DNA from: Burkholderiales bacterium LSUCC0115
Lineage (GTDB): Bacteria > Pseudomonadota > Gammaproteobacteria > Burkholderiales > Burkholderiaceae_A
NCBI GenBank assembly: GCA_009646425.1
Contig: WJBW01000001.1
Span: 1-64,000, forward strand
Direction: 5' to 3'
Length of the DNA: 64,000 bases
The notes beneath the pieces were generated by a model, which was given only the letters and a program-made list of their open reading frames with translations, was not told the DNA's origin and made no database searches. Both the position numbers and the translations under genes were made by a program. Positions 1 to 10,653 of the stretch are shown one piece after another. Each line of letters begins with the position of its first letter. Positions within the stretch are counted from its first letter, which is position 1.

Positions 1-1
1 T

Positions 2-1732
2 GAGAGCAATGCGAACGATGGTTCGATCAGTACGACCATTACGATAACGCTGACGGGGGATACTTTTGCTGCTGGGGTTGTGAGCGGCAGCAAGGTCAGT
101 GCTTCTAACGTTCCGGCTGGGTTGACTGCGAGTTTTACGAGGGTTAGCAACACTGAGGTTAGCGTCACGCTGACGGGCAATGCTGCTGCCCACGCCAATG
201 CGCAAGACATTAGCAATCTGACGGTGACGTTTGCTGACGGGGCCTTTACAACCGAAGGTACCGCTTCGAATGTCACCAATTACTCTAAGTCTGACTTGGT
301 CATCGACTTTGCGGATCCCCCGGGAAATAGTGGTGGTGGGGGCGACACCACGTCTCCTCGAAATATCGCTGCGGATCTTGATCCTCAGTCAGATACGGGA
401 GATCGAGATCGTGTCACGAAGGTAATCGATCCAGATATCTCCGTCAATGCCGGAGATCTTTTGCAGGCGGATCGTACAGTTAGGCTTTTGGACTCAAAGG
501 GCGGAGTCGTCTCTTCCAAGGGCGTTTCAGCGGACGAGATTCAATCAGGGGTTTCCAATATTTCCCCGGGTTTACTAGACGATGGCGTTTACACATTTAA
601 GTCTCAAGTTCTAGATAAGAACGGCGTGGTCGTCGGAGAGTCACCCGTGACCATCACAATCGTGACTGATAGAGATGGTGTTGCACCATCAGTTGAGCTT
701 GCTGCTAACGGCGGAGACTTTAACCGGGATGGTGTCAAAGATTGGGAACAAAACAACGTTGCCCAGTTACCGCTTTTGTCTCTCGAGGCTTTTTCTCAGG
801 GGAAAGAGGCTCCGAAGGAATCATTTGGGGCGGTTATTGCTGGTTCGCTAGATCGCGGTAATCTTGGAGCGTCAGCGTCGTTGAATAGTAACGCTCAGTT
901 GGCGGACTTGTCTGTAGAAGCCCTTCCGGAAACGCCTACCCCTGAGGGTTTCACTGCGGTGACGCCACTATTTCAATTCTCGTTGACATCCCAAGACTCC
1001 CAAGTTCTGTTGGATACTGATTCCGACAGGGAGGGGCTACAGGTTCAAGCCGTAATCGATTTGCCGACAGGTGTTAAGGCCACTAGCTACATCAAATTTA
1101 ACTCCCAAACCAATGAGTGGGTCGACTTTACAAACGTCAGTTCTCTTGAGGGGACTGGTGATGGTGCCGTTCTAATCGATTCGAATCGTGACGGCTTGGT
1201 AGATCGCGTGTTACTCACCTTGACTGATGGCGGCCCTGGTGACGAGGACGGTATTGCTAACGGAGTTGTCGTCGATCCTGGGGCTTTGGCCGCATTTGAT
1301 GATTTTGCGTTTTATGCAGAGCGAACAGCTTGGGGTGATACGTTCCTCAGAACGGACGCAACGGACGACATAACTGGAATTGACTTTTATGCCGCACCTG
1401 ATTTTTCCGAGGGCCTACTAAAGTTAAAGGGGTACTTCAATCCGTTTACCAAAGATTATTTTTATGCCCCAGAGGGCGTCGCGACACCTTATGCATGTTT
1501 TCAAGAAATCACATCTGTCGACTTCGGCTATGTCGCCGCTGTGGGGCAAGGAGCTTTTGATTTGCATCTTTATATGAACACTCAAGGGCTAACTGAAATT
1601 TTGAGTGAAGAAGCGGCTGCTGAGAGGAATCTGACGGAGATGGGTTACAAGGATTACGGCGAAATTTTCGCCTCTACGCAGGACGTTAACATCATTACAT
1701 TGGTTGGCTCCGAAGGCTATTTTTATGCGTAA
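2..1732 (+). CDS. Large Ig-like repeat surface protein, C-terminal part (5' end outside window)
   Basis: The reading frame is already open at base 2, so this is the last 576 residues of a longer protein; the GTG at base 80 is only an internal codon. The first ~95 residues are a Thr/Ser/Val-rich beta-strand repeat of the kind found in very large adhesin-like proteins. A GGGG linker and a second Ig-like segment follow. Three acidic Ca-binding-like motifs are visible: DFNRDGVKDW, DTDSDREG and DSNRDGLVDR. The segment LTDGGPGDEDGIANGVVVDP matches my memory of the choice-of-anchor U domain, which suggests an exported, surface-anchored protein. The last ~140 residues are rich in aromatic residues and I do not recognise them as a family. 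Codon use looks AT-richer than the core genes to the right. It overlaps the next gene by 8 bases. Binding partner and role are unknown. Confidence 0.8.
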   Translation, partial: ESNANDGSISTTITITLTGDTFAAGVVSGSKVSASNVPAGLTASFTRVSNTEVSVTLTGNAAAHANAQDISNLTVTFADGAFTTEGTASNVTNYSKSDLVIDFADPPGNSGGGGDTTSPRNIAADLDPQSDTGDRDRVTKVIDPDISVNAGDLLQADRTVRLLDSKGGVVSSKGVSADEIQSGVSNISPGLLDDGVYTFKSQVLDKNGVVVGESPVTITIVTDRDGVAPSVELAANGGDFNRDGVKDWEQNNVAQLPLLSLEAFSQGKEAPKESFGAVIAGSLDRGNLGASASLNSNAQLADLSVEALPETPTPEGFTAVTPLFQFSLTSQDSQVLLDTDSDREGLQVQAVIDLPTGVKATSYIKFNSQTNEWVDFTNVSSLEGTGDGAVLIDSNRDGLVDRVLLTLTDGGPGDEDGIANGVVVDPGALAAFDDFAFYAERTAWGDTFLRTDATDDITGIDFYAAPDFSEGLLKLKGYFNPFTKDYFYAPEGVATPYACFQEITSVDFGYVAAVGQGAFDLHLYMNTQGLTEILSEEAAAERNLTEMGYKDYGEIFASTQDVNIITLVGSEGYFYA

Positions 1733-2420
1733 GAGATTAATTACGGGCCTTTTGGCTTTTTTTGGGGTTGTTCAGTTTTCGGGTGCAATAGCCGCTCCGA
1801 TAATGCTTGATCAGGAGTTCGTCTACGTTCAGGGAGCCCTCGAAGCCTCTAAGTTGTCAAATTTCCAGGGGCCCACTGTGGATTTGGGTTCTGGGATCTC
1901 TGCAACAGGGACGACGACTATTGATCGTGGAAGAGGTTGGGGTCTAGCGCTAGGCAGGCAATGGATATCAGAGGATGAGGATAGGAAGCAGGAATTTCAC
2001 CGACTCGAAATCGAGTTGTTTTCCACATCGTTTAAAAGGCAGTATGTAACGTTCTTTCAGGCTATGCCGGCTTCAGGTGATCTGAGTGCGGAAGTACTGT
2101 TTCTTAATTATCTAAAGCGGGTCTCAGAGAGAGACAACTACAGATATCTGGCCGGGCTTGGGATTGGTTTGGCTAGACTTTCCGTTACTGACGGTCCCAT
2201 CTTTTCTAATGAGTGTGGGTGTCCAAAAGGTGGCGATTCCACTGGGTTCGCATGGCAGGCAAAAGCGGTTGTTCAGAGGCCACTGAGTGATTCAAGTGTT
2301 CTCAATGGGTACATTTTTTACAGAAGCTTGCCAGCGATGAGTTTTGGTAATTCGCCGCAGACGCAGTATCCGCGTTTCGGGCTATACGGCATCGGTATCT
2401 CGATAGAGTTTTCTCTCTAG
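1725..2420 (+). CDS. Small outer-membrane beta-barrel protein (hypothetical)
   Basis: This encodes a predicted 231-residue protein. I chose the ATG at 1725 over an in-frame TTG at 1704 because it gives a clean signal peptide (MRKRL, a hydrophobic stretch, then GAIAA as the likely cleavage site near residue 21). The rest shows alternating polar and hydrophobic residues, many aromatics and Gly, and a C-terminus ending in a beta-strand (GIGISIEFSL), all typical of an 8- to 10-stranded outer-membrane barrel. A CGCPKG element near residue 165 could form a disulfide in a loop. The start codon lies inside the end of the surface-protein gene (8-base overlap), which suggests translational coupling and a joint role, for example anchoring or export of that protein. 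This is inference; no family name can be given from sequence alone. Confidence 0.65.
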   Translation: MRKRLITGLLAFFGVVQFSGAIAAPIMLDQEFVYVQGALEASKLSNFQGPTVDLGSGISATGTTTIDRGRGWGLALGRQWISEDEDRKQEFHRLEIELFSTSFKRQYVTFFQAMPASGDLSAEVLFLNYLKRVSERDNYRYLAGLGIGLARLSVTDGPIFSNECGCPKGGDSTGFAWQAKAVVQRPLSDSSVLNGYIFYRSLPAMSFGNSPQTQYPRFGLYGIGISIEFSL

Positions 2421-3139
2421 CAATCTTTGACCACATTGCGGGTAGTCTTGGTCTCTCTTGGTTGGGTAGTATGGTTGCCTCATAGTGCCCCCCGGGGACG
2501 TCTACCTGCGATGCCGGTTTTGCCTGTAAACAGCTGAAGTAGCTCACCAAGCTGCCTGAGATTATGAAGTCGGCTGGACACCTCTGACGCTCGCTCTTTG
2601 GTCGCCCGGGTTGATCCCCCATGGATATAGCGGGAATGATTCACACCTTTCAGGACATTCCTAGAGCGATGGGCTCCATGCATCCGACAGGCGCAGCAAC
2701 CTTATGCAGCGGGATTCCGACAAGGGAGTCCGGTGCGCTTGGTGAGTACGGAGCACTGTCTCGTAGTTTCCTTCCTTATGTTAGGTAGTGGCATTACTAG
2801 TAGTCTTCATAGTAAAGGTGGTTCATTTGGAGGCTAGTCCTTGGATTGTTCTCAATACCTATGCAAGTACCACCAAGAGACCCATACATACCGGCACGAT
2901 CTGTCGACATAGTTACCCTAATCACCTTGGCTTAAAGTTGGTGAGATAGACAAATCGGATTGTAGGAATAGGGGGATGGCTACCCGTCTGGCCGCCACCC
3001 CCGGTTGGGACTTAGGGGTTTGCTTTACAGCAGGCTTCTGGAATAAGGGTTGCAGTCGTCTCGTGGAAAAAATACGCAAATATCCCTGGGCCTGCGTAGC
3101 TCTCCACGTAAAACTGATCTTTCAACCAGTTAATTCGTC
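2421..3139. other. Stretch of about 720 bases without a recognisable gene
   Basis: No open frame here has a plausible ribosome site, start and family resemblance. Short frames exist on both strands but read as random low-complexity protein. Base composition is more mixed than in the core genes. It lies between the outer-membrane barrel gene and the broken integrase, so it is most simply decayed mobile-element DNA. The missing C-terminal part of the integrase should have been here, but I could not recognise its catalytic R-H-R-Y motifs in any frame. Confidence 0.5.
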
Positions 3140-3505
3140 TCAACGAGTCTCTGGGTTGAAGAGGTCAGAGACGGTGATTTTGGCCTCGCGGGCAGCCGTT
3201 GCCTCCCTCAGCGCCTTTGCTTCCCTCTCACGCTCGTCGATCGGGTCTAGCCCCTGCCTTAAGAGCCGTCTGAGGTCGTTCGCTGCCTCTCGGGCGACGG
3301 CGAGGCTGACACTTGGGTAGGCGCCGATGTGAAGCTTGTGGGCACCTCCTAAGCGGGTATACCGAAACAGCCAAGTCTTCCTGGTGTTTGGGTTTCTGAT
3401 TAGCAGGTTCAAGCCATCCCCATCCGAGAGCAACATCTCCGTCTTTGTCGAGCCGATGGGGATCCTTGCGTTACGTACAGCGAGTTCGGTTAGCTTTGCC
3501 ATCAT
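3140..3505 (-). pseudogene. Truncated tyrosine integrase (N-terminal arm-binding domain only)
   Basis: The start at 3505 (a second ATG follows at once) has a good GGAGG ribosome site. The product is about 121 residues: MAKLTELAVRNARIP, then KTEMLLSDGDGLNLLI, TWLFRYTRLG and IGAYPSVSLAVARE. This is the DUF4102-type arm-binding domain of P4/prophage-like integrases. The frame stops right after the beginning of the core-binding region (ITVSDLF), whereas intact family members are near 400 residues and carry the catalytic domain after this point. The catalytic half is absent, so the protein should not recombine DNA. It reads leftward away from the proline tRNA fragment 180 bases to its right, as expected for an integrase at the end of an island. 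Confidence 0.8.
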
Positions 3506-3684
3506 TTCCTCCGATTCACGTTTTGCCCTGGTTTGGGTACAAGATTGGGTACAACTTCTTCGAGGATTCATTGAAATCTAGAAAAACAACTTGAGACAGC
3601 AAATCTGCTTAACTCACGGTTTTTTCAGTGATTTCTCGTCTGCGGGGTCTTGTCGACGGCGTCCTGACGGGGACAAAGGGCTTG

Positions 3685-3729
3685 ATGGGGTGCAAGGGGT
3701 CGGATGTTCGAATCATCTCGCCCCGACCA
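3685..3729 (+). other. 3' fragment of a proline tRNA (GGG): attachment-site remnant
   Basis: The 45 bases fit tRNA positions 32-76 exactly. They give loop ATGGGGT with anticodon GGG, the 3' half of the anticodon stem GCAAG, a 5-base variable loop, T stem GGATG/CATCT around TTCGAAT, acceptor strand CGCCCCG, discriminator A and CCA. The 5' half of a tRNA (D arm and CGGGGCG acceptor strand) is missing; bases before 3685 show only a chance CTTG. Such 3' tRNA fragments are left at the far end of an element that integrated into a tRNA gene. The orientation puts the element to the left and predicts an intact tRNA-Pro left of the window. Confidence 0.8.
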
Positions 3730-3757
3730 ATTCTTCTCTAGTAGTCACTCCCGGGTT

Positions 3758-3787
3758 TATACTTTTGGCTGTCTACATTTGTAGACA
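3758..3787 (+). promoter_or_regulatory. Possible -10 box and perfect palindrome upstream of the cobalamin riboswitch
   Basis: TATACT at 3758-3763 is a fair -10 box, although no good -35 is seen. Seven bases downstream lies a perfect 8-base inverted repeat with a 2-base spacer, TGTCTACA-TT-TGTAGACA (3770-3787). Its core TACA-N2-TGTA resembles operators of BlaI/CopY-type repressors. It sits between the likely promoter and the riboswitch, where a bound repressor could block btuB transcription. No matching regulator gene is in the window. Confidence 0.4.
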
Positions 3788-3791
3788 CCGT

Positions 3792-3984
3792 CTGTTGGTG
3801 CTCGTCTAACGCGAGTTAAACGGGAAGCTGGTGAGAATCCAGCGCTTCCCCCGAAACAGTCAGGGCTTTGTCTCTGCTCAGGATCCTGCCCAACAGGATC
3901 AGCCACTGGTGAGTCACCTCACTGGGAAGGCGAGCAAAGCGGTGCGAATGCACCTGGGCCCGAGCCTGGATACCGGCCACAGTC
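3792..3984 (+). promoter_or_regulatory. Cobalamin (B12) riboswitch
   Basis: Class features appear in order. GTTAAACGGGAAG opens the core, GGTGAGAATCC is the family's GGTGnnAATCC element, and a CCCGAAACAGT segment stands where CCCGCAACTGT is usual. The B12 box GCCACTG is at 3902-3908, followed by TGGGAAGGCGAG and the closing GCCCGAGCCTGGATACC. It ends about 50 bases before a TonB-dependent receptor gene, the standard target of this RNA. In this family, adenosylcobalamin binding normally lowers expression of the downstream gene. The exact ends are approximate. Confidence 0.9.
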
Positions 3985-4034
3985 GTTGACGTTGTCTGTC
4001 GCTTCGGGGTTGGGGCGGCCGGGAAGGGTACACA

Positions 4035-5936
4035 TTGAAAACCAAACCAGTTGCGCTGGCGTTGGCAGTTTCGGCTACGTTCGGCTGCGCACAGGCTCAG
4101 TCCGTCCAGACCTTGGATCCAGTGGTGGTGACGGCGAGTAAATTCGAGGAACCGAAAGGCCAGGCCACCGCAATCGTCGATGTCATCGACCGCCAGCAGA
4201 TTGAGGCCAGCGGTACGGCCAACATCACCGAGTTATTAGACCAGGTCTCCGGGGGCTTGCTCACCCGACAGTACGGCCGGCTCGGTGCAGACGCGAGCTT
4301 TGACCTGGGCTATCTAGGTGGAGCCAGTGTCCAACGCACCCTGGTGCTGGTCGATGGCGTGCGTATGAACGACATAGATGGCGCCACCATTCGATGGGGC
4401 CAGGTGCCACTGGATGCCATTGAGCGCATCGAGGTCCGCAAGGCGGGCGGTGGTGTCTTGTTTGGAGACCGTGCCCTGGGCGGCGTGGTGAACATCATCA
4501 CCAAGCGCGCACCGGGATACAGTTCGGCCACGGTGACACTCGGTAGCTTTGGCACTCGGGTGGTTGGCGTTCAGACCAGCCAGAAGGCCGGGCAGACCTC
4601 TTTACAGATTGCTGCCCAGCAGGCCAAGACGGCCGGCTATCGAGAGGATGCCGACCAGACCATCAAGAGCCTTCAGGTGGGCCTCGGTCAACTGACACCG
4701 TTTGGCACATTCGGTCTAGACCTTCGCAGTACCTATGAGAATGTGAACCAGCCCTCCGCCGTTAGTTTGGCCACGTTTCAGGCCAACCCGCAGTCCAGCA
4801 GCAACGGCCTGACGCGGTTCAAGCGGCGTGGTGTGAACACCGACCTGAGCTGGGCCTATCCACTCGCCGACGGATCAGAGATCAAATCCAGGTGGTCCAA
4901 GGAGAGCTCCAGAAGCGAGGCCTGGAACATCTACGACAATGATCGCGACACCTTTGAGTTGTCATCGCTCGTTAGGCTGGGATCAAGTCGAATCGTCGCG
5001 GGACTGGAGTACTTTGATGCGGAGTCTGCCTCTAATCGTTCTCAGAGGGCCAGCGTCACCCAGACCTCCACAGCGGGATTTGTGAACTTAGAGGCGCCTG
5101 CTGGCAGCAGTCTGCTGAACCTGGGTGTGCGGCAGCAGCAGATGGAAAACCGCTTCTACAACACCAGTGGTGCTACGGCTGAGCAATCCAATGAGAACCT
5201 CAATGGCTGGTCGTTGGGTGGCCTAACACCCATCGGCGGGATGGATCTGCGCTATAGCCTGCAGTCCTCGTTTGCCTTTCCGCATGCGGATCAACTCTTC
5301 ACTTACCAGGCGACATCGCCCTATGCGCCTCTGGACATCTATTCCGGCGTAAAGGCCATGCGCTCTCAAGAGGCTCAGACCTCGCTTGATTACAAGGGCA
5401 GTCGCGCAAGGCTACGGGCCGGTCTTCGCTACCTGAAGATCTTAGATGAGATCGGTGAGCTGACCGACTGCGCCGGCGTCAACGTCTCTTGCAACACCAA
5501 TCTATACGACACCACTCGCGTGATCTTGTCACTAGAAGGAACGGGACGGATCAGCAAGGGCTGGGCTTGGCGAGCCTCGGTCGATCGGGTCCAAGCCAAG
5601 ATTGACTCTGGGTCCAACAAGGACAACCTGGTCCCCATGGTCCCCAATCTCCTGGCCAGGGTGGCGCTGACCTATCAGTCCACCGCGGGGCAATTCCAGA
5701 TGCTGGCCAATCACCGCGGCAAGATGTTCAAAAACGGCGACAACGCCAACAGCTCCAGCAAGATCCCTGAGCGGGTCGTCGTGGACGCAGGCTATGCCAT
5801 CGCCAACAAGACCCAGGAGCTGTCTTTTTGGATTCGCAACCTGGCTGATCACCAGTACTTTGATTTTGCCGAGACCTGGGGCGTCGCCCCCGCCGATGGC
5901 CGAAGCATCGAGGTGCGCTTTAAGCAGACCTTCTAA
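4035..5936 (+). CDS. btuB: TonB-dependent cobalamin receptor (BtuB-like)
   Basis: This is a 633-residue outer-membrane receptor, a usual length for BtuB. It starts at a TTG with GGGAAGG as ribosome site. A signal peptide runs to about residue 21 (FGCAQAQ). The TonB box is LDPVVVTASK (about 27-36), followed by the plug domain with VLVDGVRMND and GGVVNIITK, then the barrel, ending in the phenylalanine-terminated strand VRFKQTF. A cobalamin riboswitch sits directly upstream, which is the main reason for naming the substrate. Transport needs energy from TonB-ExbBD, not encoded here. Its 3' end overlaps the convergent potassium-channel gene by 4 bases. It may also take up related corrinoids. Confidence 0.85.
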   Translation: MKTKPVALALAVSATFGCAQAQSVQTLDPVVVTASKFEEPKGQATAIVDVIDRQQIEASGTANITELLDQVSGGLLTRQYGRLGADASFDLGYLGGASVQRTLVLVDGVRMNDIDGATIRWGQVPLDAIERIEVRKAGGGVLFGDRALGGVVNIITKRAPGYSSATVTLGSFGTRVVGVQTSQKAGQTSLQIAAQQAKTAGYREDADQTIKSLQVGLGQLTPFGTFGLDLRSTYENVNQPSAVSLATFQANPQSSSNGLTRFKRRGVNTDLSWAYPLADGSEIKSRWSKESSRSEAWNIYDNDRDTFELSSLVRLGSSRIVAGLEYFDAESASNRSQRASVTQTSTAGFVNLEAPAGSSLLNLGVRQQQMENRFYNTSGATAEQSNENLNGWSLGGLTPIGGMDLRYSLQSSFAFPHADQLFTYQATSPYAPLDIYSGVKAMRSQEAQTSLDYKGSRARLRAGLRYLKILDEIGELTDCAGVNVSCNTNLYDTTRVILSLEGTGRISKGWAWRASVDRVQAKIDSGSNKDNLVPMVPNLLARVALTYQSTAGQFQMLANHRGKMFKNGDNANSSSKIPERVVVDAGYAIANKTQELSFWIRNLADHQYFDFAETWGVAPADGRSIEVRFKQTF

Positions 5937-6877
5937 GGGTGCGGGTGGTGACCCCGCCCCTTAGACTCTTCTAGCACCCGCTTGGTAATGGCATTGGCAT
6001 GCTCGTGGGTCAGGCCAAACTTAATCCGCAGGCGCTCTAGGATCTCCTGCTCTTCCTCGTCAATGTGTTGGTCATCGGACAGAGCTTTGTGAACCTCGGA
6101 CTCAAAGATCGCCCGCTTACGCGCCATCTGGTTGGCAAATGAGTTGGCCACAATACCGGTGAGCAAGGCCACGGTGCAGACGCCGAGCAAGGCCGTAATC
6201 GCCCCAAGCACCTTGCCCGCAATGGTCACTGGATAGACATCGCCATAACCCAGTGTGGTCAGCGTCACGATCGACCACCACATGGCGGCGGGAATGCTGC
6301 CAAAGTGCTGCGGCTGAGCCTGGTGTTCAACCGTGTAGGCCAGACAGGCCGACAACAAGATGGCAATCGCCAGAATGTACAGAGCCGAGACAAAAGACCG
6401 CCGCTCGTCATAGATGGCGCTGAACAGGTCTTCCAGGGCCGTGTTGTAGTGGCTGATCTTCAGAACCCGCAGCATCCGCACCGCCCGCATGAACCGCAGA
6501 TCCAGATCCAGGCCAAAGACGTGCAGGTAGAAGGGCAGAATCGCCAACAGATCGATGATCCCGTGGAAGCTCAAGACATACTTCAGTCGAGCCCGAGTGG
6601 GGGTTAGGTGGGTTCGGCCAGCCGGCGCACACCAGAGCCTGAACAAGTACTCAATCGAAAAGAACGCAACCGAAAAGACCTCGAAGGCATGAAAGGCCCG
6701 GGCGTAGCTGGTGTGTAGCGCTGGGACCGACTCCAGAATAATGGTCAGAATGCTGGCCACAATCATCGTCAGAATGACCCACTCCAGGGCCACTCGGGCC
6801 TTGTCGCCTGGCTCTTTGCCAAACAGCAGCTGGTAACACCGCAGCTGAACCGAGACGGGGCCGCGGTGGTGGCTCAT
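5933..6877 (-). CDS. Voltage-sensor-type potassium channel
   Basis: This 314-residue protein has six predicted membrane segments, at about residues 33-53, 66-86, 101-121, 127-143 (S4), 161-184 and 219-246, with a pore loop between the last two. The selectivity filter is TLGYGD at 208-213. S4 carries basic residues at every third position (R128, R131, R134, R137, K140), so a working voltage sensor is likely. The cytoplasmic C-terminus is acidic then helical, and no RCK/TrkA-N domain is seen. The gene begins 3 bases after the DUF2863 gene ends, so it is probably co-transcribed with the TCA genes upstream. A channel in such an operon is unusual. Confidence 0.88.
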   Translation of the reverse strand: MSHHRGPVSVQLRCYQLLFGKEPGDKARVALEWVILTMIVASILTIILESVPALHTSYARAFHAFEVFSVAFFSIEYLFRLWCAPAGRTHLTPTRARLKYVLSFHGIIDLLAILPFYLHVFGLDLDLRFMRAVRMLRVLKISHYNTALEDLFSAIYDERRSFVSALYILAIAILLSACLAYTVEHQAQPQHFGSIPAAMWWSIVTLTTLGYGDVYPVTIAGKVLGAITALLGVCTVALLTGIVANSFANQMARKRAIFESEVHKALSDDQHIDEEEQEILERLRIKFGLTHEHANAITKRVLEESKGRGHHPHP

Positions 6878-6880
6878 GAC

Positions 6881-8050
6881 TTAATGCAGGTGAGCGCCTG
6901 AAGGCTCACCAGTCTCTGGCAGCTCAGCGTGAACCATCTCACCTTCGGTGTTGGGGTAGAGCGGTGCGCCACAATCGTCGCAGTACTCCATGGGCATGCG
7001 CTGGCGCAGCACCTCGATGCGGACCAGGCCGGAGTCCTTGAGTACCGTCTCAACCTCTTCGATCACGTCGCTCATCTCATCCTCGGCACCCAGCAGGGGC
7101 CAGACAATGCCGTGAATGACTTCCTCTTCGTCGGCCACCTGAAAGCCAATCCGGTATTCCTCGAGTTGGCGGTTGTAGCAGCCAGCAATGGTGGCCACCA
7201 GATTGTTCGGGGTGATGCTGAGCGTCGTGCACAGAAAGGCCACGGAGGCCGAGATGCTGAAGGGACGGGCGGCTCTGTCGGCATCCCGGCAGGCCACGTA
7301 GTAGGCCCGCGGCAGCATGGGCTCAAACCCACAGGCCGGCAGCAGCTCACCCAGACTCTTCTCCACGGCCTGGTTCCAGGCGGCGTGGACCTCTTCGCGG
7401 TTGACCATGCCCTCTTGCCACTTGAACAGGGCTTTGCCAGCGGGTCCGGCCACCACACCCAAGATGTATCGCTGGTCGGCCAGGAACTGAGCGGTCTCGT
7501 TTAGGGATCCGGTGTCGACCGGCAGTCGACCATCGGACAGGTGCGACATCAGGCTGGTACGAAACTCCGCTGTCTCGCCAAAACTCTCGGGCAGCTGATC
7601 GGGCGAGAAGAAATAATCGGCCACGACGACATCGGTGTCATCGGCAAAGACATGGGCCTTGAGAGCCTGACGAATCTCCTCGGTGATCTTGGTCCCGAGC
7701 ACGCGGGTGGGCAGAGGCATGCGTGACCACGCCAACACCGGTGCGGCAAACAGCAGGACGTCACGCTGGCCATCGGAACTGCGAACCAAGACATGCTCCA
7801 CCCGGCCCTCGATGGCATCGGCCAGTTCTTCGTAGGCGCGCGACTCGCGGTCTGCCAGACGATCCAGGGCAGCGTTGAGGCTGCCCTCATCGTTGTTCTG
7901 AAGCAAGGCATCGATCTCGCCGTCTAGGCGGGATTCCCAGAAATGGTCTTCGGCCCGACTGCCCGACTGGGCCAGGCCTTCGGCCAGTTCAACCAAACGG
8001 TCGGCCTCACGAGAGGCACGACCGCGACGAGACGATGGAGAGGTTTTCAT
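6881..8050 (-). CDS. DUF2863 family protein
   Basis: This 389-residue protein resembles the DUF2863 family, which is largely confined to Burkholderiales and has no known function. The N-terminus is basic and Ser/Arg rich. An acidic helical region follows (about 20-90). A mixed alpha/beta body ends with CDDCGAPLYPNTEGE near residue 360, a CxxC that could bind zinc. There is no signal peptide or membrane segment, so it is probably cytoplasmic. It begins 2 bases after the acnB stop and is followed 3 bases later by the channel gene. This is tight operon packing, though the link to aconitase is unexplained. Confidence 0.8.
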   Translation of the reverse strand: MKTSPSSRRGRASREADRLVELAEGLAQSGSRAEDHFWESRLDGEIDALLQNNDEGSLNAALDRLADRESRAYEELADAIEGRVEHVLVRSSDGQRDVLLFAAPVLAWSRMPLPTRVLGTKITEEIRQALKAHVFADDTDVVVADYFFSPDQLPESFGETAEFRTSLMSHLSDGRLPVDTGSLNETAQFLADQRYILGVVAGPAGKALFKWQEGMVNREEVHAAWNQAVEKSLGELLPACGFEPMLPRAYYVACRDADRAARPFSISASVAFLCTTLSITPNNLVATIAGCYNRQLEEYRIGFQVADEEEVIHGIVWPLLGAEDEMSDVIEEVETVLKDSGLVRIEVLRQRMPMEYCDDCGAPLYPNTEGEMVHAELPETGEPSGAHLH

Positions 8051-8052
8051 CC

Positions 8053-10653
8053 TTAGACGGTAACACCCTTGGCCGTTTCCGCGTATTCCTGAATCTGATC
8101 GAAGTTCATGTAGCGGTAAACCTCCGAGGCGGCTGCGGTCACAACCCCCGTGTGCTCCAGGTACTCGGCCACCGTCGGAATGCGACCCAGCTTGGAGCAG
8201 ACCGCAGCGAGCTCGGCTGAGCCCAGGAACACATTGGTGTTCTTGCCCAGACGGTTGGGGAAGTTACGCGTGGAAGTCGAGATGACCGTGGCGCCCTCGC
8301 GAACCTGAGCCTGGTTGCCCATACACAGCGAGCAGCCCGGGGTCTCGGTACGCGCACCGGCCTGACCGAAGGTGCTGTAGTAGCCCTCTTTGGTCAGCTC
8401 GTTCTGGTCCATCTTGGTGGGAGGCGCCACCCAGAGACGAACCGGAATGTCGCGCTGGCCCTCGAGGACCTTGGCTGCGGCACGGAAGTGACCGATGTTG
8501 GTCATGCAAGAGCCAATAAAGGCCTCGTCGATCTTGGTGCCCGAGACTTCGGACATGAACTTGGCGTCGTCCGGGTCGTTGGGGCAGCAGACGATGGGCT
8601 CTTTGATGTCGGCTAGGTCAATCTCGATGACAGCGGCGTATTCGGCGTCTTTGTCGGCCTCGAGCAGATCGGGCTTGGCCAGCCAGGCTTCGACACTCTT
8701 GATCCGACGCTCCAGCGTGCGACGGTCTTGGTAGCCGTTGGCAATCATGTTCTTCATGAGCACGATGTTGCTACGCAGGTACTCGGCGATGGGCTCTTTG
8801 TTGAGCTTGATGGTGCAGCCAGAAGCCGAGCGCTCGGCCGAGGCATCGGAGAGCTCAAAGGCCTGCTCCACCTTCAGGTCGGGCAGACCCTCGATCTCCA
8901 GAATGCGGCCCGAGAAAATGTTCTTCTTGCCCTTTTTCTCGACGGTCAGCAGACCGGCCTTGATCGCATAGAGCGGAATGGCATGCACCAGGTCACGCAG
9001 GGTGACGCCGGGCTGCATCTTGCCCTTAAAGCGCACCAGCACAGACTCGGGCATATCAAGAGGCATCACACCGGTGGCCGCACCAAAGGCGACCAGTCCC
9101 GAGCCAGCGGGGAAGGAGATGCCAATGGGGAAGCGGGTGTGAGAGTCACCGCCCGTGCCAACGGTATCGGGCAGCAGCAGACGGTTGAGCCAGGAGTGGA
9201 TCACGCCATCACCCGGACGCAGGGCCACACCACCACGATCGCTCATAAAGTGGGGCAGCTCGCGGTGGGTCTTGACGTCCACAGGCTTGGGATAGGCCGA
9301 GGTGTGGCAGAAGGACTGCATGACCATGTCGGCCGAGAAGCCCAGGCAAGCCAGGTCCTTGAGCTCATCACGGGTCATGGGGCCGGTGGTGTCCTGAGAA
9401 CCCACGGTGGTCATCTTGGGCTCGCAATAGGTGCCGGGGCGAACGCCCTTGCCCTCGGGCAGGCCACAGGCGCGGCCGACCATCTTCTGGGCCAGGGTGA
9501 AGCCTTTGCCAGAGTCCGCAGGGGACTGGGGCAGACGGAAGAGGGTTGAGGCGGGCAGACCCAGGAACTCACGGGCCTTGCCAGTCAGCGAGCGGCCGAT
9601 GATCAGGTTGATACGACCACCTGCGCGAACCTCGTCGAACAGCACGTCGCTCTTGAGTTGGAACTCGGCCACGGTCTTGCCATCTTTGACGATCTTGCCC
9701 TCGTAGGGGCGCACCTCGATCACATCGCCCATCTCCAGGCCGCCGACATCGACCTCGATGGGCAGACAGCCAGAGTCTTCTTGGGTGTTGAAGAAGATCG
9801 GCGCGATCTTGTTGCCCAGGGTCACACCGCCATAGCGCTTGTTGGGCACAAAGGGAATGTCTTTGCCGGTCATCCAGACCACGCTGTTGGTGGCGGATTT
9901 ACGAGAAGAACCGGTACCGACCACATCGCCCACATAGGCGACCAGGTGGCCTTTTTTCTTGAGGTCTTCGATGAACTGAATGGGGCCGCGCTTGCCGTCT
10001 TCTTCGGGCTTGAAGGCCGCATCAGGACGGGTGTTCTTGAGCATCGCCAGGGCGTGCATGGGAATGTCAGGACGGCTCCAGGCATCGGGCGCTGGGGACA
10101 GGTCATCGGTGTTGGTCTCGCCAGGCACCTTGAAGACGGTGACCGTGATGCTCTGGGGTACTTCGGGGTTCTTGGTGAACCACTCGCCGTCGGCCCAGCT
10201 CTGCATGACAGCCTTGGCCTGGGCGTTGCCCTTGGAGGCCTTCTCGGCCACGTCGTGGAAGGCATCAAACATGAGCAGGGTGTGCTTGAGACCTTCGGCT
10301 GCGATGCTGGCGACTTCGGCATCGTCGAGCAGATCGATCAGGGGCTTGACGTTGTAGCCGCCCACCATGGTGCCAAGCAGCTCGGTGGCCTTGGCCTTAG
10401 AGATCAGGCCAACCTTGAAGTCACCATGGGCCACAGCAGCCAGGAAACTGGCCTTGACCTTGGCGGCATCGTCCACGCCAGGAGGGACCCGATGGGTCAG
10501 CAGGTCGAACAGAAAAGCGTCTTTGCCGGCCGGTGGGTTCTTGAGCAGCTCAATGACTTCAGCGGTCTGCTGAGCAGTCAGGGGCAGGGGAGGAATGCCA
10601 AGCGCGGCGCGCTCTTTAACGTGGGCATCGTAGGTTTGCAGAAAAGTCGACAT
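8053..10653 (-). CDS. acnB: Aconitate hydratase B (bifunctional with 2-methylisocitrate dehydratase)
   Basis: At 866 residues it matches E. coli AcnB (865). It interconverts citrate and isocitrate in the TCA cycle, and family members also act on 2-methylisocitrate. The order is an N-terminal HEAT-like domain, the swivel domain and the iron-sulphur catalytic domains. The three 4Fe-4S ligands are visible as C716 ([10 protein letters not shown]), C774 and C777 ([10 protein letters not shown]). [18 protein letters not shown] is also present. It follows the citE-like gene by 18 bases in the mdh-citE-acnB operon. AcnB proteins are oxidant-labile and can act as RNA-binding regulators when the cluster is lost; nothing here confirms this for this protein. 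Confidence 0.98.

Follow-up and report, generated by a model that had tools for sequence, protein, structure and literature searches.

What placed an integrase fragment and part of a tRNA gene between foreign-looking surface-protein genes and btuB at the end of a contig of Burkholderiales bacterium LSUCC0115 (GCA_009646425.1)? We analysed positions 1 to 64,000 of contig WJBW01000001.1 (hereafter the window; the contig is C1) together with the rest of the genome and its relatives. The region is read here, with a probability of roughly 0.93, as the attR of a decayed tyrosine-integrase genomic island that integrated in tRNA-Pro(GGG) by a crossover at the anticodon loop. Such an island explains the foreign-looking surface-protein genes at the start of the window. 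The features are collected in Table 1.

Table 1. Features of the island's right part and of the adjoining chromosome, in window coordinates.
Feature	Position	Strand	Evidence
Large repeat surface-protein gene, 3' part, choice-of-anchor U domain	1-1732	+	NF041766, E 9.3e-12
231-aa protein, probable small outer-membrane beta-barrel	1725-2420	+	weak OMP_b-brl match, E 0.081
Gene-less 719 bp, expected place of the integrase remainder	2421-3139	.	no recognisable gene
Integrase stub, 120 aa, arm-binding domain only	3140-3502	-	PF13356, E 1.3e-21
20-bp motif GGGTACAAGATTGGGTACAA, proposed arm-type site of the right end	3535-3554	+	second exact copy at C2:1740-1759
CTTG, imperfect copy of the 5' anticodon-stem strand	3681-3684	+	direct sequence reading
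attR core, tRNA-Pro(GGG) positions 32-76	3685-3729	+	45 nt identical to the intact tRNA
Start of the right flank, read as chromosomal	3730-3738	+	same 9 bases follow the undisturbed tRNA-Pro in G002
Cobalamin riboswitch of btuB, host, outside the island	3778-3995	+	Rfam RF00174, 89.6 bits
btuB-like TonB-dependent receptor gene, host, outside the island	4035-5936	+	PF07715 and PF00593

The tRNA-Pro(GGG) fragment and the integrase stub

The first-pass annotation had read 45 bases of the window as tRNA positions 32-76, with anticodon GGG and CCA and with no 5' half. Alignment to the intact tRNA-Pro(GGG) gene of the same genome confirmed this: the 45 bases match with 0 mismatches and run from position 32, with the break at the anticodon loop, through to CCA. 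ARAGORN found no tRNA in the window, so the fragment lacks its 5' half. An exact match of this length to a tRNA of the same genome lies far outside chance expectation. The boundary between island and tRNA fragment is at 3684/3685. The four bases in front of it resemble the anticodon-stem strand CTTGC minus one base and could be the core half-site on the element side. A full CTTGC is present at the corresponding place in one of the related elements described below (L064) and is absent in two others (L063 and L085).

The stub is found at the attR end and points into the element. Its frame runs from the ATG at 3502 to a stop at 3140; ATGs at 3505 and 3571 are also in frame. It matches Pfam Arm-DNA-bind_3, presumably the former DUF4102, over model positions 1-82 of 83, and shows no other Pfam family at E 0.001; the core-binding and catalytic domains are absent. 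An integrase of the DUF4102 type cut to about 121 residues and lying 180 bases from the tRNA fragment had been proposed, and the figures proved to be 120 residues and 182 bp, with the arm domain only. A Pfam search of the three minus-strand frames of 2421-3200 gave no match, PF00589 included, and the family integrases aligned over 2421-3139 gave no further match. Since there is no PF00589 integrase in the stub or in the downstream frames, the integrase appears dead, as had been suggested, and we regard the region as a relic and not as an active island.

The stub protein has a single match in its own genome. In the family it gave eight matches in seven of 26 genomes, the stub included; the other seven (six genomes) are 30-45% identical. 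At E <= 1e-18, only its own genome was found among 399 genomes of the order. A scan of genome contigs found no relative, and all matches in phages (119 records) and plasmids (114 records) are below 60% identity. An RNA gene is located beside the integrase in four of the seven family loci, namely tRNA-Ser in L049, L050 and L053 and tmRNA in L051. In these four the integrase frame is directly downstream of the intact RNA gene on the same strand, and a position at the far end of the element is therefore not general for Arm-DNA-bind_3 integrases. The paired GGGTAC motif described below was not seen in any of the seven family loci.

The probable left end on a second contig

The intact tRNA-Pro(GGG) gene was mapped to the minus strand of contig C2 (G000:C2:1818-1894, ARAGORN), 1.8 kb from the broken end of that contig. 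The orientation of the fragment had been taken to put the element on its left, and an intact tRNA-Pro(GGG) with the same 45 bases had been expected leftward. It is indeed present at the far left end, on a contig whose end overlaps C1. The gene order on C2 is pheT-, IHF- and MerR regulator-like frames (named by eye) and then the intact tRNA-Pro; the contig ends 1817 bases beyond it, inside the first part of the large surface-protein gene.

Over 144 bases the end of C2 and the start of C1 are identical, inside the repeat of the surface-protein gene, and the peptide read in the overlap is the same on both contigs. Searched against its own genome, window 1-330 matched only at the C1 and C2 ends, including one diverged unit (91%) on C2. 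Because of the 144-bp overlap in the repeat and the intact tRNA near the C2 end, the contig ends most likely represent the two halves of a single island. The tDNA and its fragment are on separate contigs, and the join is inferred from this overlap. If the contigs do join there, the island measures by arithmetic at least about 5.4 kb from core to core, and more if repeat units were lost in assembly. The intact tDNA and the displaced fragment are in direct orientation with the island between them, a signature feature used by the Islander search. The G+C content is 50.7% in window 1-3684 and 51.1% in C2 1-1817, versus 60.9% and 60.2% outside; the remainder of the window, sampled in 114 overlapping segments of equal size, gave values between 57.7 and 63.3%.

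A 20-bp motif near both ends

Two exact copies of GGGTACAAGATTGGGTACAA are found in the same (direct) orientation, one 58 bp past the intact tRNA on C2 and the other starting 150 bp ahead of the tRNA fragment. Shuffles of either source gave 0 matches. With up to 1 mismatch, the genome itself contains these 2 copies, one near each end, and none elsewhere. The same scan of the class found 3 copies in 2 of 369 genomes (two here and one in G716), and a backwards control pattern matched once in each of 3 of the 369. As the control also yields single matches, lone one-mismatch matches such as that in G716 are at chance level; unlike such a single match, the two exact copies at both ends are meaningful. 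When up to 3 mismatches were allowed in the six motif-holding genomes found by the contig scan below, there were 14 matches versus 5 for the backwards pattern. Owing to this control result, the motif matches used here have at most 1 mismatch, except at L090 (2 mismatches).

Just upstream of the integrase start, GGGTACAA is repeated, which is what an arm-type site could look like. GGGTACAAGATTGGGTACAA is probably an integrase arm-type site, a candidate for binding by the N-terminal domain. The motif had 0 matches in viral contigs. A literature search for 'GGGTACAAG' with 'integrase' returned nothing on bacterial mobile elements, judging by titles. The motif was not found described in the literature searches made, and we consider the shared arm-like motif with its spacing modestly new.

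Related elements in other genomes

A scan of genome contigs with the motif gave seven loci in six genomes, and in four of the six the motif is located at tRNA-Pro(GGG). In Desulfosarcina alkanivorans (NZ_AP021874.1, L085) a complete element of 8.5 kb is found in one chromosome at about 1463-9985, in minus orientation. The order is intact tRNA-Pro, motif, an inward-pointing three-domain integrase of 403 aa, a one-mismatch motif and a 45-base fragment identical to its own tRNA. The motif is 114 bp after the core start on the left and 152 bp before the core on the right (103 and 150 here). Like the island in the window, this element targets tRNA-Pro(GGG) and has an Arm-DNA-bind_3 integrase at the right end pointing inward. 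It differs in its full-length integrase and its other small genes, and its arm domain shares only about 36% identity with the stub. It is a good reference for this element type.

D. cetonica (L063, L086) and an uncultured-proteobacterium MAG (L058, L064) each have the two ends, on different contigs; a further MAG (L060) has just the left one. The distances from motif start to core start, this genome included, are 103, 104, 103, 114 and 112 on the left and 150, 152, 162 and 152 on the right. All three domains are present in the integrases of L064 and L063, whose aligned arm regions share 39% and 33% identity, respectively, with the stub. The motif thus serves as a marker for tRNA-Pro(GGG) islands even where the integrase has decayed: four of the six genomes returned hold such an element or one end of it, and the scan with the stub protein found nothing. 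It is not exclusive to tRNA-Pro, a point against the island reading, as two of the six genomes were retrieved without tRNA-Pro beside the motif. These are the Desulfovibrio and Methylophaga MAGs, with no tRNA gene beside it.

A separate locus in a MAG (L090; G777, contig C137, around 1247) carries a two-mismatch motif and further GTACCC copies just upstream of a full integrase. This integrase is 29.6% identical to that of L064 over 430 residues, and the stretch contains no tRNA gene. The locus suggests that integrases directed to other targets use this arm site as well.

Halves of tRNA-Pro also occur in phages (18 records) and plasmids (17 records), of which three and two, respectively, were examined. 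In phiPSA1, CF418P1 and a Herbaspirillum plasmid record the integrase gene is on the other side of the tRNA-Pro half; phage IPK is unannotated, and the P. aeruginosa plasmid stretch has no annotated integrase. None of the five has the paired motif, and they were rejected as close relatives.

Host flanks and the same locus in relatives

The btuB-like product is 92% identical in amino acid sequence to its counterpart at the syntenic place in relative G002; the name btuB rests on the riboswitch. Among 19 relatives examined, 10 have tRNA-Pro and the btuB upstream region with the riboswitch on one stretch, 1.1-4.5 kb apart, each with a single match to window 3600-3760, the one tRNA-Pro(GGG). Another eight have no btuB upstream region in the stretch and are uninformative on btuB synteny. 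An empty site joining the tRNA to btuB had been anticipated in related genomes. A single tRNA-Pro near the btuB region is what the 10 relatives show, but none of them joins the two directly; the genes in the 1.1-4.5 kb between tRNA-Pro and riboswitch differ between relatives. The spot between tRNA-Pro and btuB is a variable locus even without a recognisable island.

In G002 the intact tRNA is followed by the same nine bases as stand right of the fragment, and then by thioredoxin-like and transglutaminase-like genes. These two genes are not at this place in the window genome, so that none of the genomes examined offers a clean empty site for comparison. The left flank on C2, ATATCTAGG, is 8/9 identical to the flank ATATCTGGG in genus mates G004, G005 and G010 and 7/9 identical to that of G006. 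The nine-base flanks are therefore ambiguous as to which side is host, and the reading rests on the host genes on either side.

Among the relatives that btuB synteny allows to be judged, the scar is missing from this site, G001 being the one possible exception. In that genome (L025, contig C22, 13525-13745) a separate tRNA-Pro 3' half precedes btuB, with no integrase ahead of it. The half tRNA is preceded by a MarR-like regulator gene (sub-threshold MarR_2), which is cut at the junction after about 58 codons and is found in one of 11 genus genomes, G001 itself. The intact tRNA of G001 is at the very end of another contig, C70. A further island at this site, a rearrangement or a chimeric assembly could each explain the junction. 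Seven further tRNA-like matches in family genomes were considered as attR copies and rejected, as all seven are tRNA-Pro(TGG); they are second matches in five genomes and the sole matches in G020 and G025.

The probable cargo genes

The 5' part of the surface-protein gene is at C2:3-1370, and the protein has at least about 985 residues if the contigs join, and more if repeat units were lost in assembly. It has long near-identical repeats; Big_13 (E 0.00024) and Calx-beta (E 0.033) matched it below threshold. A PDB sequence search with the part in the window gave no match at E 0.1. The start of the next gene overlaps the stop of the surface-protein gene. Its 231-aa product has an N-terminus that looks signal-like by eye, and its OMP_b-brl match is below the Pfam cut-off. 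It is probably a small outer-membrane beta-barrel, as far as the sequence can tell. A single-sequence structure prediction was uninformative (mean pLDDT 33). The two proteins would perhaps cooperate on the cell surface.

The surface-protein C-terminus and the barrel protein were found in one of 26 family genomes, the genome itself. The first-pass annotation took both genes as probable cargo of the element and held that their presence at this locus in all relatives would speak against an island. They are not so distributed. Arrival together with the element is likely, though a later replacement inside an older element is conceivable. That the surface-protein gene and the coupled gene for a probable outer-membrane protein are the island's cargo is well supported, though not proven.

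The surface protein had no match in phages. In plasmids it matched two records, one from Massilia and one from Nostoc, the latter partially; the barrel protein had none in plasmids at 1e-5. On the Massilia violaceinigra plasmid NZ_CP024609.1 (L091, 7761-10265) a surface-protein/outer-membrane-protein pair is present, annotated as an Ig-like domain protein and a hypothetical protein, and no tRNA gene was found in the 10.5 kb examined. The first protein is 44% identical to the C-terminal part of the surface protein and is followed directly by one 25% identical to the 231-aa product, a homology that rests on position and a weak alignment. This suggests that the gene pair moves between bacteria as a unit. 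We regard its occurrence on the Massilia plasmid as modestly new.

Mechanism and alternative explanations

In the proposed course of events, an Arm-DNA-bind_3 integrase would have recombined the attP of a circular element with the tRNA-Pro(GGG) anticodon loop, with strand exchange presumably between the CTTGC/GCAAG stem strands that flank the 7-nt loop. From the way such islands work, the intact tRNA on the left would consist of the host 5' half and a 3' half brought by the element. The copy at 3685-3729 would be the displaced host 3' half, marking the right end. In this island and the related elements the integrase gene occupies the far end and faces inward; here it would later have been cut to its arm domain. 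The island is presumably now unable to excise by itself. Its ends look complete, and mobilisation in trans by a related integrase may still be feasible. A bolder version, which we think rather improbable, is that the island is a live non-autonomous cassette with two intact ends, moved in trans by integrases that read the GGGTACAAGWTTGGGTACAA arm site and the anticodon loop. If so, the GGGTACAAGWTTGGGTACAA arm site and its nearly constant distances from the core start (103-114 bp to one side and 150-162 bp to the other) would define a family of islands with far-end integrases across bacterial groups. The arm domains that would read the motif in the related elements are only 33-39% identical to the stub.

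The alternative that deserves most thought is a composite locus, in which the tRNA scar and the stub are an older relic and the surface-protein pair was acquired later, for example when homologous recombination brought it in or the interior was exchanged. The integrase is cut just after the arm domain and followed by 719 bp without a gene, and no phage, replication or transfer gene was seen among the assembled island frames (by eye, with Pfam on the main frames only). In addition, the intact D. alkanivorans relative carries different small genes, and the cargo pair is found on the Massilia plasmid with no tRNA gene in 10.5 kb. All this is compatible with a late arrival, but the core and the motif are retained at either end with the spacing of intact elements, G+C is low in both assembled parts of the island, and the absence from relatives fits one event as well as two. 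We consider two separate events unlikely, although a sober possibility.

Assembly or binning could also have joined a left contig part from another organism to this genome at the tRNA. The contig does end in a repeat 3.7 kb from the junction, its foreign part differs in G+C, and the similar odd junction in G001 could be such a chimera. Yet there are two complementary junctions with a 144-bp overlap, each with its own host flank (pheT/IHF-like on C2, btuB on C1). The genome is listed as 99.96% complete with 0.15% contamination, and the same architecture is found in the complete genome NZ_AP021874.1; an artefact is thus very improbable. Partial tRNA genes can arise in ways other than integration, and the 45 bases might in principle be a stray pseudogene from a gene duplication that has nothing to do with integration. 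The copy, however, starts exactly at position 32, as it does in D. alkanivorans, D. cetonica and L064, and it stands beside an integrase gene, in direct orientation with the intact gene across a low-G+C segment. A stray pseudogene is hardly credible. The reading as attR of a decayed island is thus preferred.

Comparison with known systems

In P. aeruginosa, 41 of 226 completed genomes were reported to contain tRNA-Pro(ggg) islands that have a 49-bp repeat and a P4-type integrase in the 3' and not the 5' border; these were suggested to be a distinct family (PMC8373256). This PAGI-97A group shares with our island the target tRNA-Pro(ggg), the duplication of its 3' end as a direct repeat (49 bp; 45 here) and a lower G+C content (PMC8373256). 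The P4-type tyrosine integrase of the group is in the 3' border, far from the intact tRNA; the position of the stub fits, with the arm domain alone left. The repeats in that group are 21.2 to 102.9 kbp from the tRNA and intG is present, whereas here the distance is about 5 kb and the integrase is a stub (PMC8373256). The likeness lies in target site, repeat, composition and integrase position; the word 'anticodon' does not occur in the text of PMC8373256.

The DUF4102/Arm-DNA-bind_3 tyrosine integrases include the IntSXT subgroup (PMC8138268); compared with these, the stub keeps the N-terminal arm domain and is without the core-binding and catalytic domains. The break at the anticodon loop had been said to match a known integration point, and so it does: Islander counted anticodon-centred sites in 2083 of 3919 tDNA islands (PMC4383910). 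As in those islands, one end has an intact tDNA and the other a 3' tDNA fragment, with a crossover at the anticodon loop. They differ in that the Islander search requires an integrase with the catalytic domain PF00589, which is absent here (PMC4383910). We class the island as a real but ordinary representative of a known type, decayed and with a compact cargo.

The Legionella GI-T4SS islands (PMC3864950) and Pseudomonas fluorescens Pf-5 prophage 04 (PMC2647930) are likened here by integration site. Both are also located beside tRNA-Pro, but they are larger, with secretion-system genes in the former and phage genes in the latter. Among 1273 tRNA-adjacent integrase genes, 736 were reported downstream of the tRNA in the same orientation and 438 converging on it (PMC2951348).
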